DNA of 64,000 nucleotides from Gammaproteobacteria bacterium. Its GTDB lineage: Bacteria > Pseudomonadota > Gammaproteobacteria > Steroidobacterales > PWYM01. The stretch lies in assembly GCA_007693855.1 (NCBI GenBank), contig RECU01000040.1, positions 1 to 64,000 on the forward strand, read 5' to 3'. Position 1 is the first letter of the stretch. Each line of letters begins with the position of its first letter. This document shows, piece by piece, positions 17,796 to 26,003 of this stretch. The notes under the pieces are model-generated. The model had not been told where the DNA came from and made no database searches. It was given only the letters and a program-made list of their open reading frames with translations. The position numbers and the translations under genes are program-made.

Positions 17796-19700
17796 TCAAC
17801 CAGCCATCTTCATTTTCGGCGCTGTCTGATCGGTCTTCAGCCACCGCGGAAACTCCGGCTGGGCCGGCGGCTCGAGCCCGGTCTCGGCCTTGCACCGGGC
17901 TTTGAGCTCCTCGACCGTACCGCCGAAATCGAACAGTTTGGTCTTGCCACGGTCGGCGGCCATGCGCACCCGAAGCTCGTCGCTCGCCTGTGCATCGATC
18001 TGGCCATCCGCACCCACGACCACACCATAACGGTGAACACCCTCGGGGGTCACCAGCCCGGCATCCAGGTCGAACTGGACCTTGTCGTAGGGGCGTTTCA
18101 GGGGATCGCCCCAGCCACCGCCACCCCAGGTGTCGAAGTAGAGGATATCACCGCTGTTCACGACCACCCGGTCGCACTTCGACGGCATCAGTTCCTGGCT
18201 GCCATCAGTGCGCACCATCAGTTTCTGGCTGCGCTGGCCCGGCAGACCGCCGTTCACCCCCCAGGGATAAGTCAGCCAGCGGTCGTCATGGATGGAGATT
18301 TCACCGGGCTCGAGGAAGCAGTACCCCACGCGCAGCGCATTGCCGCCGCGATGCAGCCCTGGGCCGCCGCTGTCGGGCAGCGTCTCATACGTCTCGATAC
18401 GCAGCGGGAAGTAGCTCTCGAGGAACTCATTGGGCACGTTGGTAAAGCTCGGCCACAGCGAATGACCATCCGGGCCATCACCCGAGGGCTTGCCGGGAAC
18501 GCCCCCGAAGCCGATCTGATAGAGCTGGTACCACTCACCTTTCTTGTCGTACCCCGAGTACATGAAGTGCGGGCTGTCGGAGAAGCCGGCGGCGCAGAGG
18601 AAGTCCGGACTGCCCTGACCGAGAAGCCCGCCGAGGATATCGAAAATGCGCCCCAAGGCGTGCGTACGGCAGGACAAGGCGGCCGGCTTCTTGGGCTTGA
18701 GCAGCGTGCCCTCGGGAATACGCACTTCCATGAGGTCGTAGAAGCCGTCGTTGAACATGATCTGGGGATCGAACACCATGATCATGTAGACGCCGCAGAA
18801 CATCTTGAACATCTCCTCATTGAGGAGAAAGTTCACCGGCCCGACGGATTGCGGATCGGTCCCGGCAAAATCAAAGATGACCTTCTCGCCCTCACGCCAC
18901 ATGGCGCAACGGATCTTGTACGGACCCATGCCCATACCATCATCGCAGATGTAGTCTTCGAAGTACTGCTTGGTCTCCGGCACGGTGGTATGGATCAGCT
19001 TGCGCATTGCCCGGTAGTTGCGATCAAGCAATTCTTCCAGCGCCGAATAGTAGACATCATCACCAAAGCGTTTCGCGAGCTCGATGCAACGCTTCTCGGC
19101 AGTGCGGATAGCCGCGACGATGGCGTTGAAATCGCTCAGGTTCCAGTGTGGCAGGCGGCAGTTGTGCAGAATGAGCTTGAGTACATCTTGCTGCAATTCG
19201 CCCTTGCGAAAGATCTTCACCGGCGGGATCACCACGCCTTCCTCAAAAATCTGCCGCGCATCAGTCGGCAGGCTGCCCGGAACCTTGCCGCCGATATCGG
19301 TCATATGCCCGAACATCGCGGCCCAGGCAATGATGCGGCCATCCTTGAAGATCGGCTTGAGCAACAGCCAGTCGTTGGCGTGGCTGATCGCGCCGTTGGC
19401 CGAGTACGGGTCTGAAGTGAGGAATACGTCGCCTTCCTCGATGGTCTCGTCGAATCCCTTCAGGAAGCCATGAATGAACGAGCCAAACTGGCCGACGACC
19501 ATCTTGCCGTCACGGTTCGCGATCATTGGAAACGCATCGCCCTGCTCGCGGATGCCCGGGGACATCGCGGTGCGAAACAGCACGGCGTCCATTTCATGCC
19601 GCGCATTGAGCATGGCGTTTTCAACAATGTCGAGGGTGATCGGGTCGACCTTCTTGCGTTTGAAGGCCTTTTTACTGGTTTCGATGATCTGTGCTGGCAT
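17796..19700 (-). CDS. Hydantoinase B/oxoprolinase family protein (acetone/acetophenone carboxylase alpha-like)
   Basis: A 634-residue member of the HyuB family. It begins with the typical DPITLDIVENAMLNARHEMD, then GDAFPMIANRDGKMVVGQF and the metal-site-like SDPYSANGAISHANDW and GHMTDIGGKVPGS, and ends with the VVVNSGDILYFDTWGGGGWGDPL motif. With HyuA-type ATPase subunits these proteins hydrolyse hydantoins or 5-oxoproline, or carboxylate ketones such as acetone and acetophenone; the short N-terminal KKAFKRKK stretch is unusual. It follows the HyuA gene by 55 nt on the same strand. Carboxylase or hydrolase cannot be decided from sequence alone. Confidence 0.9.
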   Translation of the reverse strand: MPAQIIETSKKAFKRKKVDPITLDIVENAMLNARHEMDAVLFRTAMSPGIREQGDAFPMIANRDGKMVVGQFGSFIHGFLKGFDETIEEGDVFLTSDPYSANGAISHANDWLLLKPIFKDGRIIAWAAMFGHMTDIGGKVPGSLPTDARQIFEEGVVIPPVKIFRKGELQQDVLKLILHNCRLPHWNLSDFNAIVAAIRTAEKRCIELAKRFGDDVYYSALEELLDRNYRAMRKLIHTTVPETKQYFEDYICDDGMGMGPYKIRCAMWREGEKVIFDFAGTDPQSVGPVNFLLNEEMFKMFCGVYMIMVFDPQIMFNDGFYDLMEVRIPEGTLLKPKKPAALSCRTHALGRIFDILGGLLGQGSPDFLCAAGFSDSPHFMYSGYDKKGEWYQLYQIGFGGVPGKPSGDGPDGHSLWPSFTNVPNEFLESYFPLRIETYETLPDSGGPGLHRGGNALRVGYCFLEPGEISIHDDRWLTYPWGVNGGLPGQRSQKLMVRTDGSQELMPSKCDRVVVNSGDILYFDTWGGGGWGDPLKRPYDKVQFDLDAGLVTPEGVHRYGVVVGADGQIDAQASDELRVRMAADRGKTKLFDFGGTVEELKARCKAETGLEPPAQPEFPRWLKTDQTAPKMKMAG

Positions 19701-19755: not shown

Positions 19756-21954
19756 TTAGCGCTTGGCAGCGGCTTTCTTCTTCGCCGCTGGTTTCTTGGC
19801 CACGGCTTTCCTGGTTGCCGGGGTTGCCTTTTTCCCGGCTGCCTTTTTCTTCGCCGTGGCGGCCTTGGTCGAGGTCTTGGCGGCACTGCCCTTGACGCCG
19901 ACCCCGTTGGGATTGATCAGAATATTGCCGAACTTGTCCACGCTGCCGGTATGCCCCGCCAGAATGACGGTCGTTGAATCCATCTCCATGACGACCGCTG
20001 GCCCCTCGATCTTGTTGCCAGCCTTGAGCTTGCTGCGATCGTAGATCTGGGCCTTGCGCATCTTGCCGTCGGCGTAGATCTTGTGCTCGGCAATGACCGC
20101 CGCCTTGGCGCTCGGTCCGCCGCGCTTGAGTTCAGGGGCCTTGACCTTGGTCGGCTTGCCCTGGACGACGGCGCGCAGGTTGACCAGCTCCTTGTCGAGT
20201 TCGAGCGCGAAGGTAAACAGCTGACGGTGCATCTCGTCGAAGGGCCCGCCGATGGCGGCCAGCCCCTGCTTGCGCAGCTGCTTGAGATCGACATCGACCG
20301 TCAGCTGCAGACCCTGGCCGTGATAGCGCACATCGACCTGGTAGCTCACCGACTGGTCCTTGCGTGCCACACCCTCCTTGTCGAGTGTCTTGGCAGCGAC
20401 GTCAGCCAGATCCTCGAAAATCCGTGCGACCTCGTCGACGTCGGTATCGGCGAACTTGCGGATGAAGGTGCGCGAGGCCTCATCACGTACCCGCGTGGTC
20501 GCATCACCATAGGCGCACAGCACGCCCGGACCCGGCGGAATGATGACCGGCCACGAGCCCATCAGCTTGCCGAGCGCATTGGCATGCAAAGGTCCGGCGC
20601 CACCGAAGGCGATCAGCGCGAAATCACGTGGATCATGGCCCTGTTCGACCGAGACCAGGCGCAGCGCGCCGCACATGTTTTCGTTGACAATATCGACGAT
20701 TCCAGAAGCGGCCTCGTGCACGGAGAGATCCAGCGCCTTGGCGATGCTCTGCACGGCGGTCTCGGCCAGGTCCTTGCGGATTTCCATGTCACCGCCGAGT
20801 TTCACCTCGGCCGGCAGATACCCGAGCACCACGTTGGCGTCGGTGACGGTGGGCAGCTCGCCACCCTTGTTGTACGCCGCGGGGCCTGGTGCCGCGCCGG
20901 CACTCTCCGGCCCGACGCGCAGCGCCTTGGTGAGCTCGGGGACCTTGGCGATGGAGCCGCCGCCGGCGCCCACCGTGCGCACATCGACAGACGAGGCCCG
21001 TACCGTCACGTCGCCCACCGTCGTCTCGCGGCGCAGCTGTGCCTTGCCACCCTGCACCAGGCAGACATCGGTCGAGGTGCCGCCCATGTCGAAAGTCAAC
21101 AGGTTCGGAAAACCAGCCTGGCTCGCCACCCAGATGGCACCGGACACGCCACCCGCCGGGCCACTCATCAGCAGGTTGACCGGTGTCTCCTCGGCTGCCT
21201 TGGCTGCCGCCAGACCGCCGTCGGAGCGGAGCACGTGCAGCTGCACGTTCTTCATCTTGCGGGTGAGCTCGCGGTGGAGGTTGCGGATGTAGGTCTGTAC
21301 CTTCGGCCGCACAAAGGAATTGGCGACAGTGGTGACGGTACGCTCGTATTCCTGCATCTCCGGAACGATCTCTGAAGACAGCGACACCGGAATCTCTGGC
21401 ATGACCCGCGCGGCCACGCGCTTGATCTTCTTCTCGTTGGCCGGGTTGGCGAACGAGTTGATCAGCGACACCGTCAACGCCTCGATGCCCTTCTCGCGCA
21501 GACGGATCAGCTCCGCCTCGATCTGCGCCTCGTCGAGCTTGCGCACGACTTTACCCTGCGCGCTCATCCGCTCTTCCGCCTCGATGGTCAGGGCAAGGGG
21601 CGCGATGGGGTTGGATTTGTTGTAGATCACCCAGCCGCCGAGACCCCCGGGTACGTAGGAGCGGGCGATCTGCAGCACCTGGCGGTAGCCGCGGGTCGTC
21701 ACCAGGCCCACTGTGGCACCGTTGCCTTCCAGCATGGTGTTCGTGGCCACGGTAGTCCCGTGCATCACGTGGGTGATTTCCTTCGGATCGATGCCCGCGT
21801 TGGCGCAGACCTTCTCGATGCCGTTGAGCACACCGATCGAAGAATCATGCGGGGTACTGGGCACCTTGGCCGTAAACACATCTCCGGACTTTTCGTTCAC
21901 CAACAGAAGGTCGGTAAAAGTGCCCCCTACGTCGACTCCCAAGCGATAACTCAT
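19756..21954 (-). CDS. Hydantoinase A/oxoprolinase family ATPase subunit with histone-H1-like tail
   Basis: A 732-residue HyuA protein. ATP-binding signatures of the acetate/sugar kinase/actin fold are visible: GVDVGGTFTDLLLVN at the N-terminus, HGTTVATNTMLEG, and later TFDMGGTSTDVCLV and FGGAGPLHA. It should activate the substrate carbonyl with ATP for the HyuB partner. Residues 689-732 form a separate low-complexity tail with 14 Lys, 2 Arg and 16 Ala in 44 residues, containing KK-x-A repeats like histone H1 or AlgP tails. Such a tail is not part of the enzyme family and could bind nucleic acid or polyphosphate. The stop is in frame and the tail is continuous with the ORF, so it does not look like a frameshift. 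Confidence 0.9.
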   Translation of the reverse strand: MSYRLGVDVGGTFTDLLLVNEKSGDVFTAKVPSTPHDSSIGVLNGIEKVCANAGIDPKEITHVMHGTTVATNTMLEGNGATVGLVTTRGYRQVLQIARSYVPGGLGGWVIYNKSNPIAPLALTIEAEERMSAQGKVVRKLDEAQIEAELIRLREKGIEALTVSLINSFANPANEKKIKRVAARVMPEIPVSLSSEIVPEMQEYERTVTTVANSFVRPKVQTYIRNLHRELTRKMKNVQLHVLRSDGGLAAAKAAEETPVNLLMSGPAGGVSGAIWVASQAGFPNLLTFDMGGTSTDVCLVQGGKAQLRRETTVGDVTVRASSVDVRTVGAGGGSIAKVPELTKALRVGPESAGAAPGPAAYNKGGELPTVTDANVVLGYLPAEVKLGGDMEIRKDLAETAVQSIAKALDLSVHEAASGIVDIVNENMCGALRLVSVEQGHDPRDFALIAFGGAGPLHANALGKLMGSWPVIIPPGPGVLCAYGDATTRVRDEASRTFIRKFADTDVDEVARIFEDLADVAAKTLDKEGVARKDQSVSYQVDVRYHGQGLQLTVDVDLKQLRKQGLAAIGGPFDEMHRQLFTFALELDKELVNLRAVVQGKPTKVKAPELKRGGPSAKAAVIAEHKIYADGKMRKAQIYDRSKLKAGNKIEGPAVVMEMDSTTVILAGHTGSVDKFGNILINPNGVGVKGSAAKTSTKAATAKKKAAGKKATPATRKAVAKKPAAKKKAAAKR

Positions 21955-23140: not shown

Positions 23141-23227
23141 TAGCCCCTGTCCGGCCGCGTGCGCGGCCCGCCAGCACGGCATTCTGCCTCCGACGAACTC
23201 CAATCAGAAACCATGGGACAAGAACGC

Positions 23228-24442
23228 ATGACCACCGACGCCACTTCACCTGCCGGGGCCCTGTCCGGGCTGCGTGTCATCGAGATGGGGACCCTGCTTG
23301 CAGGGCCATTCTGCGGCCAGCTGCTGGGCGATTTCGGCGCCGAGGTCATCAAGATCGAACCGCCCGGCAAGGGCGATCCAATGCGCGAGTGGGGCCAGGA
23401 AAAAGCCCATGGCAAGTCCCTCTGGTGGCCCGTCATTGCCCGTAACAAGAAGTCGATCACCCTGAACCTGCGCGAAGAGGCCGGACAGGAGATCGTTCGC
23501 GAGTTGGTGCGAGACGCCGATTTCCTGCTTGAGAATTTCCGTCCGGGCACGATGGAGCGCTGGAACCTGGATTACCAGACGCTCGCCGAGATCAACCCGA
23601 AGCTCATCATGATTCGCGTCTCCGGGTTTGGTCAGACCGGCCCCTATTCGAAGCGCGCCGGCTTTGGCGCAGTCGGCGAATCCATGGGGGGGCTACGGTA
23701 TGTCTGCGGAGATCCGCGGACGCCCCCAAGCCGCATGGGGATCAGCATCGGTGACTCGCTGGCGGCTACCTTCGCCTGTGTTGGCGCCCTGTCCGCACTG
23801 CATTACCGGGAGCGGACCGGTCGGGGCCAGGTGGTCGACTCGGCCATCTACGAGGCCGTGTTGAACATGATGGAGTCGCTGGTCACGGAGTACGACGCCG
23901 TCGGGTACATTCGCGAGCGTCAGGGATCGATCCTCCCCAACGTGGCACCCTCGAACGTCTACCCCACGAAAGACGACAAGCTGCATCTGATCGCCGCCAA
24001 CCAGGACACGGTTTTCAGGCGGCTTGCGGCCGCCATGGGACGGCCGGAACTCGCCGAAGACCCGCGCTACAGCAGTCACACCGCCCGCGGTCAGCGCCAG
24101 CAGGAGCTCGATGAGCTGATCTCCGAGTGGACCCGGACACTGACCCAGGAGGAGTTGATCGGCTTGATGGATGAGCATGGCATCCCGGCCGGCGGCATCT
24201 ACCGCGCCCCGGAAATGCTCGAAGACCCGCACTTCAAGGCGCGCCAGGCCATCATCGAGGTGATGCACCCTGAGCTCGGTTCGCTGAAGATGCAGAATAT
24301 CGCTCCAAAGCTCTCCCTCACCCCCGGCCAGGTTCGGGCCGTCGGCCCGGAGCTCGGGCAGCATAACGAAGAGGTTTACCGCGGCGTGCTGGGCTACGAC
24401 GATGCGCGACTGCAAAGCCTGCGCGATCAGGGGATCATCTGA
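23228..24442 (+). CDS. CaiB/BaiF-family (class III) CoA-transferase
   Basis: A 404-residue protein with the interlocked-ring class III CoA-transferase sequence. It opens GLRVIEMGTLLAGPFCGQLL, then GAEVIKIEPP, ENFRPGTMERW, and the catalytic aspartate Asp176 in GISIGDSLAAT, which forms the acyl-Asp intermediate. It moves CoA between carboxylic acids. The start at 23228 fits the family; an ATG 15 nt earlier at 23213 is possible. It is followed by the isochorismatase-like gene after 2 nt and a VOC gene, in an operon divergent from the lyase. Together with that lyase it suggests activation and cleavage of a branched or hydroxylated acid. Confidence 0.93.
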   Translation: MTTDATSPAGALSGLRVIEMGTLLAGPFCGQLLGDFGAEVIKIEPPGKGDPMREWGQEKAHGKSLWWPVIARNKKSITLNLREEAGQEIVRELVRDADFLLENFRPGTMERWNLDYQTLAEINPKLIMIRVSGFGQTGPYSKRAGFGAVGESMGGLRYVCGDPRTPPSRMGISIGDSLAATFACVGALSALHYRERTGRGQVVDSAIYEAVLNMMESLVTEYDAVGYIRERQGSILPNVAPSNVYPTKDDKLHLIAANQDTVFRRLAAAMGRPELAEDPRYSSHTARGQRQQELDELISEWTRTLTQEELIGLMDEHGIPAGGIYRAPEMLEDPHFKARQAIIEVMHPELGSLKMQNIAPKLSLTPGQVRAVGPELGQHNEEVYRGVLGYDDARLQSLRDQGII

Positions 24443-24444
24443 CC

Positions 24445-25077
24445 ATGACCAAGACGCTTGAAGCGGATTATGCGGCCGCCGGCTTTGGGGGGAATCTCCC
24501 GCTCGGCACGCGCCCGGCACTGGTGGTGATCGATTTTGTGCAGGCGTATCTTGTGCCGGAGTCGCCGTTGTATGCCGGCGTGGAGACTGCCCGCGAGCAC
24601 TGCGTGCAGTTGCTGGCGGGCGCCCGCAAGGCCGGCGTTCCCGTACTGCACACCAACGTGGTCTTCACCCCTGGCGGCGTCGATGGCGGGGTGTTCTTCC
24701 GCAAGGTCAAGGCCTTGCGGGCTTTCGAGCAGGGCTCTCCGATGGGCGCGTTCGCCGAAGGCCTGGAGCCGATTGCCGGCGAGCCGGTGATCAGCAAGCA
24801 ATATGCAAGTGCGTTCTTCGGCACGAGCCTGGCCTCTACGCTCACCGCGCTTGGTGTGGATACCGTCCTGATCGCGGGCTTGTCGACTTCCGGATGCGTG
24901 CGAGCCTCGACGGTCGACGCCATGCAGCATGGGTTCATCCCGGTGGTGGTTCGCGAAGCCGTGGGTGACCGCGACCCGGGCCCTCACGAGGCCAACCTGT
25001 TCGATTTGCAAGCGAAGTACGCCGAGGTCAAGACGCTGGCGGAGGTGCTGGCTTACCTTGACGGGCTGACGTCGTGA
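24445..25077 (+). CDS. Isochorismatase-family cysteine hydrolase (maleamate/N-carbamoylsarcosine amidohydrolase-like)
   Basis: A 210-residue hydrolase with the three catalytic residues of the family: Asp30 in ALVVIDFV, Lys118 in VISKQYAS and Cys151 in LSTSGCVRAST. The pattern STSGCVR and overall length resemble amidohydrolases such as maleamate amidase or N-carbamoylsarcosine amidase, which hydrolyse C-N bonds. It begins 2 nt after the CoA-transferase stop and its stop overlaps the next gene by 4 nt, so the three genes are co-translated. The amide substrate could tie the block to the hydantoinase genes at 17796-21954. Confidence 0.9.
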   Translation: MTKTLEADYAAAGFGGNLPLGTRPALVVIDFVQAYLVPESPLYAGVETAREHCVQLLAGARKAGVPVLHTNVVFTPGGVDGGVFFRKVKALRAFEQGSPMGAFAEGLEPIAGEPVISKQYASAFFGTSLASTLTALGVDTVLIAGLSTSGCVRASTVDAMQHGFIPVVVREAVGDRDPGPHEANLFDLQAKYAEVKTLAEVLAYLDGLTS

Positions 25078-26003
25078 GCGAGCGCGCTGCGTCCTCGATC
25101 CCTCAGCCATACCTCGGCCCAATCACCTGCGTCACCGTCACCAGCGAAGACCCCGCAGGTCTCGCGGCCCTCTACAGCGAATGGCTGGACTACCGCGAAG
25201 TCCCCGCGGGAGCAGGCCCGCTGCCGGAAGCGCTCGCCGACGGCTGGGGCGCCCCCGCTCAGGCCGGCGCCGAGACCAGACTGCTGGCGCCTGCCCGGGG
25301 CAGCGGCTTCTGGTTCCGCTTCGTTGCCGGGCAGACCGGCAACTATCGCGCCCTGACCACCTGGGGCTGGAACGCCGCGGAGCTGATCGTCCAGGACGTC
25401 GATGCCCTGGCCGCCCACCTGGCGGACTCGCCCTTTCGCATCATCGGGCCGCCCGAGGACCTGTCGTTCACCGACGCCATCCGCGCCATGCAGATCGAAG
25501 GCCCTGCCGGTGAGGTGGTCTACCTGACCCAGTTCAAGCGCCGGTTGGAGGAATTCGATACGCCGGAGCCCGAGTGCGCCGTGGATCGATGCTTCATCGT
25601 GATTCTTGGCGGGGCAGACCTGTCTGCGCTCAAGCGCTACTACGAGACACGTTTCGGCGTACCCAACGCCCCGGTCATGCCGGTGAAGATCACTGTGCTG
25701 TCGAATGCGCTCGGACTGCCGGCCGAGCAGCCGCATGACCTCTCGGCACTGCCACTCGCTGGGCAGAGTTTCATCGAAGCCGATCAGTACCCGCCAGAGA
25801 CCGTCGCACGGCCGACGCCCGAGGGCGCACTGCCCCCGGCGATGGCGATCGTCAGTTTCCGCGTGCCCGATCTGTCACCGTACCGGGCAGCGGCGCTGGG
25901 GCCAGTCTATACCAGCGACCTCCCGCCCTATGCCGGAGCCCGTGCGCTCACGCTGCGCGGCCCTGCAGGCGAGCTCATCGAACTGATCGAAGCCGTGTGC
26001 TGA
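25074..26003 (+). CDS. VOC-superfamily (glyoxalase/dioxygenase-like) protein
   Basis: A 309-residue protein from a GTG at 25074 that overlaps the previous stop (GTGA). Two beta-alpha-beta-beta-beta modules appear, at about residues 15-150 and 160-305, as in vicinal-oxygen-chelate proteins. The first module has GPITCVTVTSEDPAGLAALYSEWLDY, a typical glyoxalase opening, and ends LTQF; the second ends with ALTLRGPAGELIEL. Metal-ligand residues are not clearly conserved; His is scarce in the first module, so it may be a binding or isomerising protein rather than a metal dioxygenase. It is the last gene of the CoA-transferase operon. Confidence 0.75.
   Translation: MSERAASSIPQPYLGPITCVTVTSEDPAGLAALYSEWLDYREVPAGAGPLPEALADGWGAPAQAGAETRLLAPARGSGFWFRFVAGQTGNYRALTTWGWNAAELIVQDVDALAAHLADSPFRIIGPPEDLSFTDAIRAMQIEGPAGEVVYLTQFKRRLEEFDTPEPECAVDRCFIVILGGADLSALKRYYETRFGVPNAPVMPVKITVLSNALGLPAEQPHDLSALPLAGQSFIEADQYPPETVARPTPEGALPPAMAIVSFRVPDLSPYRAAALGPVYTSDLPPYAGARALTLRGPAGELIELIEAVC

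Follow-up and report, generated by a model that had tools for sequence, protein, structure and literature searches.

Lysine- and alanine-rich C-terminal tails on either subunit of HyuAB-family complexes

The window analyzed here, a stretch of 64,000 nucleotides from a gammaproteobacterial contig (RECU01000040.1), contains adjacent genes for the two subunits of a hydantoinase/oxoprolinase-type enzyme. The features of the locus are as follows.
17796..19700, minus strand: HyuB partner subunit, 634 aa, without a long basic tail; Pfam Hydantoinase_B over cut-off
19756..21954, minus strand: HyuA, hydantoinase/oxoprolinase ATPase subunit, 732 aa, core residues 1-682, TAA stop
19759..19908, minus strand: Lys/Ala-rich C-terminal tail of HyuA, residues 683-732, net charge +17, no acidic residues
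22075..23076, minus strand: HMG-CoA lyase-like protein, conserved neighbor upstream of hyuAB
23159..24442, plus strand: CoA-transferase family III, conserved divergent neighbor
24445..25077, plus strand: isochorismatase-family hydrolase, conserved neighbor in part of the loci

The hyuB gene is complete and lies 55 bases downstream of hyuA. The order HMG-CoA lyase-like gene, hyuA, hyuB, accompanied by a CoA-transferase gene in divergent orientation and frequently by one of the isochorismatase family, is common to genomes with tailed HyuA, with tailed HyuB and without tails. The neighborhood of Luminiphilus-type loci (L253, L254) departs from this conserved synteny. No comparable tail was found on any other gene of the hyuAB cluster. 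A 309-aa protein encoded at 25074-26003 is also kept in this neighborhood, beside the CoA-transferase and isochorismatase-family genes, and has no significant Pfam match.

HyuA contains the Pfam domains Hydant_A_N, Hydantoinase_A and Hydant_A_C, all over their cut-offs, and its nearest solved structures are N-methylhydantoinase (7hk5) and the caprolactamase subunit CapA (6yra). Judged by sequence, the enzyme is a member of the HyuA/HyuB ATP-dependent hydantoinase/oxoprolinase/caprolactamase family. Both subunits align with CapAB and hydantoinase/oxoprolinase structures (6yra, 7hk5) over the entire core and the Pfam set is conserved, as are the metal ligands: in an alignment to 6yra_B, HyuB residues D55, H107, D110 and H132 correspond to D41, H99, D102 and H124, the metal ligands of CapB (PMC8453981). 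The assignment does not extend to caprolactamase identity, with scores of 544.5 and 204.4 bits lying below the NCBIfam equivalog cut-off of 1000. In contrast to the enzyme described here, CapA (696 aa) and CapB (581 aa) carry no such tail.

The original prediction placed a histone H1-like tail on this metabolic subunit, in frame and followed by a proper stop, with 14 Lys, 2 Arg and 16 Ala in the last 44 residues. A recount reproduces this composition exactly and finds zero Asp or Glu, the 732-aa reading frame closes with TAA and the catalytic core ahead of the tail is complete, with all three Pfam domains. Because alignment with orthologues sets the end of the core at residue 682 (...FGNILINP), the tail starts at residue 683 (nucleotide 19908) and comprises 50 aa, a little more than the 44 initially described, ending in ...FGNILINPNGVGVKGSAAKTSTKAATAKKKAAGKKATPATRKAVAKKPAAKKKAAAKR. 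AlphaFold2 models residues 690-732 with pLDDT values of 24-30, compared with about 90 for the C-terminal barrel, and places no secondary structure beyond residue 682; the tail is thus predicted to be intrinsically disordered. A repeat scan lists no DNA tandem repeats at the tail. The tail does sit on HyuA as proposed, but the wording "fused to" does not hold in the sense of a domain fusion, since a Pfam search with the tail alone gave no match and such tails seem to have grown in place, short repeats having expanded in one relative.

About 90 usable HyuA orthologues were obtained from a genome contig scan and searches of relatives, and 89 of them were used for a core tree from which tail columns were omitted. 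As a protein query against relatives, the tail matched only the window and the nearest congener owing to its low complexity, and the tail survey was therefore based on direct scans of sampled genome stretches. In the genus of the window, every one of the five species sequenced has a HyuA with a basic tail (50, 50, 31, 50 and 125 aa). The alignment of homologues suggested earlier as a check shows the tail to be lineage-specific, with most orthologues outside the genus ending 1-3 residues past the core. HyuA tails of 11-54 aa also occur in a second clade, whose members are labelled Steroidobacteraceae, Nevskiaceae and uncultured proteobacteria, and a single additional HyuA, L071, has its own tail of 65 aa. 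Presence of any HyuA tail requires about 3 changes on the 89-orthologue tree, at least 2 of which are forced by well-supported branches, and the tail has been lost in none of the 5 congeners and none of the 15 members of the second clade. Because congeners assembled separately have it in the same position, the tail is neither an error nor a chance product, which disposes of the sequencing error named initially as a possible refutation. In the literature library searched, nothing relevant turned up on hydantoinases bearing basic tails.

When the partner gene was read at every locus, many tail-less HyuA proteins were found to be paired with a HyuB ending in a Lys/Ala tail, a pattern that is new here and goes beyond the original prediction. 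Examples are L032 (...PAKKAAGKKPAAKKRTVRRKAA), L051, L028, L047 and the Luminiphilus/HTCC2080 group, in which the HyuB tails extend roughly 50-73 aa beyond the core with net charges of +16 to +25. Among 71 dereplicated complexes, a strong tail (net +10 or more) is found on HyuA in 9, on HyuB in 11 and on both in none; 28 complexes have only short tails (net +4 to +9) and 23 have no tail. Strong tails on HyuA and strong tails on HyuB each correspond to 5 changes on the tree. The lack of complexes with strong tails on both subunits falls short of significance (p 0.20, even when phylogeny is ignored), and strict exclusivity was therefore dropped and the claim limited to either subunit. The tail, predicted to be disordered, keeps its composition in every sequenced member of its clade, and tails of this kind have arisen repeatedly and can sit on either subunit. 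The earlier reading of the tail as an oddity of HyuA holds in that the tail is unusual for its genome; other proteins have such tails as well, with several origins in the HyuAB subfamily, and the tail is not a property of HyuA, since HyuB is tailed in many relatives. The unit to consider is therefore the complex.

Within the genus, the tail is loosely constrained, because its dN/dS lies above that of the core but below 1. Specifically, the tail value is 0.30 (core 0.03) against the nearest congener and 0.49 and 0.44 against two others, the last from a gapped, near-saturated alignment; core values range from 0.03 to 0.05 across comparisons. In the closest pair of tails, basic positions were kept at 17/18 sites and other positions at 22/32 (p 0.07), and pooled equal-length tail pairs gave no significantly better per-site retention of basic residues (p 0.33). 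It is net charge and position of the tail that persist, rather than its sequence. In one relative (L007/L087), the 3' end of hyuA shows a (GTGGCCAAGAAGAAG)n expansion within the 125-aa tail, the perfect 15-base repeat encoding VAKKK, and this repeat represents one way in which tails lengthen. The VAKKK tract is likely to be length-variable between strains.

Tails are also unevenly distributed with respect to core charge. Of 16 complexes with strongly acidic cores, 15 have no tail, as against 8 of the 55 others; this comparison comprises about 4-6 independent contrasts, a number too small to support a test. The idea that tails compensate for acidic cores was rejected, as acidic cores are without tails. 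Their absence there is expected if tails act electrostatically and are useless in salt-adapted proteomes, and the very acidic cores are presumably salt-adapted. In L026, L027, L033, L038, L190-L193 and others, the cores are very acidic, with a net charge of -55 to -75 for each AB pair, and all of these lack basic tails. Non-acidic relatives without any tail likewise exist, namely the low-GC marine group L053-L074 as well as L012, L069 and L197.

Such basic tails are rare in the genomes concerned, at about 0.1-0.3% of sampled ORFs. A loose basic Lys-tail filter was passed by 2 of the 796 non-overlapping ORFs (at least 100 aa) in a 962,529-base sample of the window's own genome, by 2 of 356 in G423, which has a tailed HyuB, and by 1 of 356 in G013, which has a tailed HyuA. 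Of these five, three are the HyuA and HyuB proteins under study, whose loci the samples deliberately took in; the remaining two are a DeaD-type DEAD-box helicase and a DNA topoisomerase I. A lineage-wide habit of adding Lys/Ala tails is rejected for these three sampled genomes. The helicase (L135:115-1971, contig C2 of the window's own genome) has a moderately basic Lys/Arg/Ala tail that is weaker than that of HyuA and is the only other such tail in the sampled 962 kb. The topoisomerase (L208:16536-19124 in G423, a gammaproteobacterial MAG) has a Lys-rich stretch near its C-terminus.

Histone H1-like tails are already known from DNA, RNA and granule proteins. The enzyme-DNA complex of Streptomyces TopA is stabilized by its Lys repeats (PMC7398561), the C-terminus of AlgP is needed for polyphosphate granule spacing (PMC9239181) and PHA granules are attached to the nucleoid by the PAKKA lysines of PhaM and the tail of PhaF (PMC9049629). 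The HyuA tail resembles those of Pseudomonas AlgP and PhaF and Cupriavidus PhaM in being a Lys/Ala/Pro-rich, acid-free C-terminal extension predicted to be disordered. It differs from this group in having one KPAA and no tandem KPAA, in its length of 50 aa compared with about 154 aa, and in sitting on a catalytic metabolic subunit instead of a phasin or a small helical domain. Only hydantoinase domains score over Pfam cut-offs in HyuA, which lacks a phasin or AlgP-type N-terminal domain. By analogy, the tail may work like those of AlgP and PhaF, but HyuA is no member of that group. Streptomyces topoisomerase I and DEAD-box helicases are likewise enzymes with a C-terminal Lys/Ala-rich extension; however, they act on nucleic acid, whereas HyuAB has no known nucleic-acid substrate.

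We tentatively propose, as a reading we rate at somewhat under an even chance, that the disordered polycationic tail serves as a non-specific tether between the HyuAB complex and a polyanion, nucleic acid being the most probable one. The tail would have been added to a complete and probably active ATP-dependent lactam/hydantoin/amide hydrolase-type enzyme, each assembly presenting two or more flexible basic tails contributed by HyuA or HyuB depending on lineage. These tails could grip a cellular polyanion through non-specific, salt-sensitive electrostatic contacts. Nucleoid DNA or RNA would be the likeliest ligand by analogy with the tails of topoisomerase I, AlgP, PhaF and PhaM, and the purpose of the tail would be localization rather than catalysis. 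Electrostatic tethering to a polyanion, an idea close to the tether to DNA, RNA, polyphosphate or a membrane surface in the original prediction, is the best reading because the tail is disordered by prediction, polycationic, freely evolving, recurrent and present on either subunit, and because the sampled genomes otherwise have such tails on nucleic-acid enzymes alone. Weighing against it are the per-site retention of basic residues and the A-versus-B exclusivity, neither of them significant, the small number of contrasts behind the acidic-core correlation and the several non-acidic relatives that do without a tail.

The chief rival, which we consider unlikely, is neutral or nearly neutral expansion, in which read-through and slippage of AAG/GCC-rich triplets do no harm at an exposed C-terminus and leave a basic tail without a function. 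This would account for a tail whose dN/dS is roughly tenfold that of the core, its free length (11-125 aa), the evident (GTGGCCAAGAAGAAG)n growth in L007/L087, the lack of significant per-site charge retention when pooled and the existence of relatives without tails. Yet tails that are rare elsewhere recur on both subunits of one complex in several lineages, the remaining tailed proteins in the sampled genomes are nucleic-acid enzymes, neither tailed clade shows a loss and the tail dN/dS stays below 1. The last point, together with the common tail position in separately assembled genomes, also refutes an assembly or frameshift artefact, to which we assign practically no probability.

Two further proposals retain an electrostatic role with a different partner, and we regard both as improbable. 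The polycation may touch acidic patches of its own HyuA/HyuB, aiding assembly, solubility or substrate/ATP capture. The HyuB of a near-identical congener has a net charge of -13 over the whole chain next to a nearly neutral HyuA core, and in an (alpha beta)2 assembly like that of CapAB (PMC8453981) a tail on either subunit could reach the same surface; however, the most acidic complexes, which offer the most surface to bind, have no tails, and neither do orthologues at 70-77% identity or the solved CapAB. Alternatively, and about equally improbable, the ligand may be polyphosphate or a PHA granule instead of nucleic acid, as for AlgP and PhaF/PhaM. Both remain candidate ligands because the window's genome and all congeners have genes for PPK and PhaC, and the Hyu carriers without a PPK match (G012, G025, G047, G016, G029, G051) all have a tail-less HyuA. 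PPK and PhaC are, however, also present in tail-less lineages, e.g. G011 and G006, while G031 has a moderate HyuB tail without a PhaC match and the PF05597 phasin was not found in the window's own genome. Presence of PHA synthase or PPK was not informative as a predictor of tails.

If tethering to a polyanion is correct, a metabolic ATP-dependent amidohydrolase complex may have been recruited to the nucleoid, RNA or a condensate, with selection acting on the tail through the complex as a whole, so that it can migrate between subunits in evolution, an extension we find rather doubtful. Repeated gain of a tail on either subunit of a catabolic enzyme would then amount to a natural experiment demonstrating that it is the complex that benefits from the tail, and would suggest that ordinary bacterial metabolism is spatially organized. 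The many orthologous pairs with tailed HyuA, tailed HyuB or no tail and with conserved synteny permit a clean test. The HyuA tails of L056, L057, L065-L068, L070 and L083 vary in sequence and length, yet have a common terminal (S/K)KGRK or KGRK motif, and this shared ending suggests a constraint on the extreme HyuA C-terminus.
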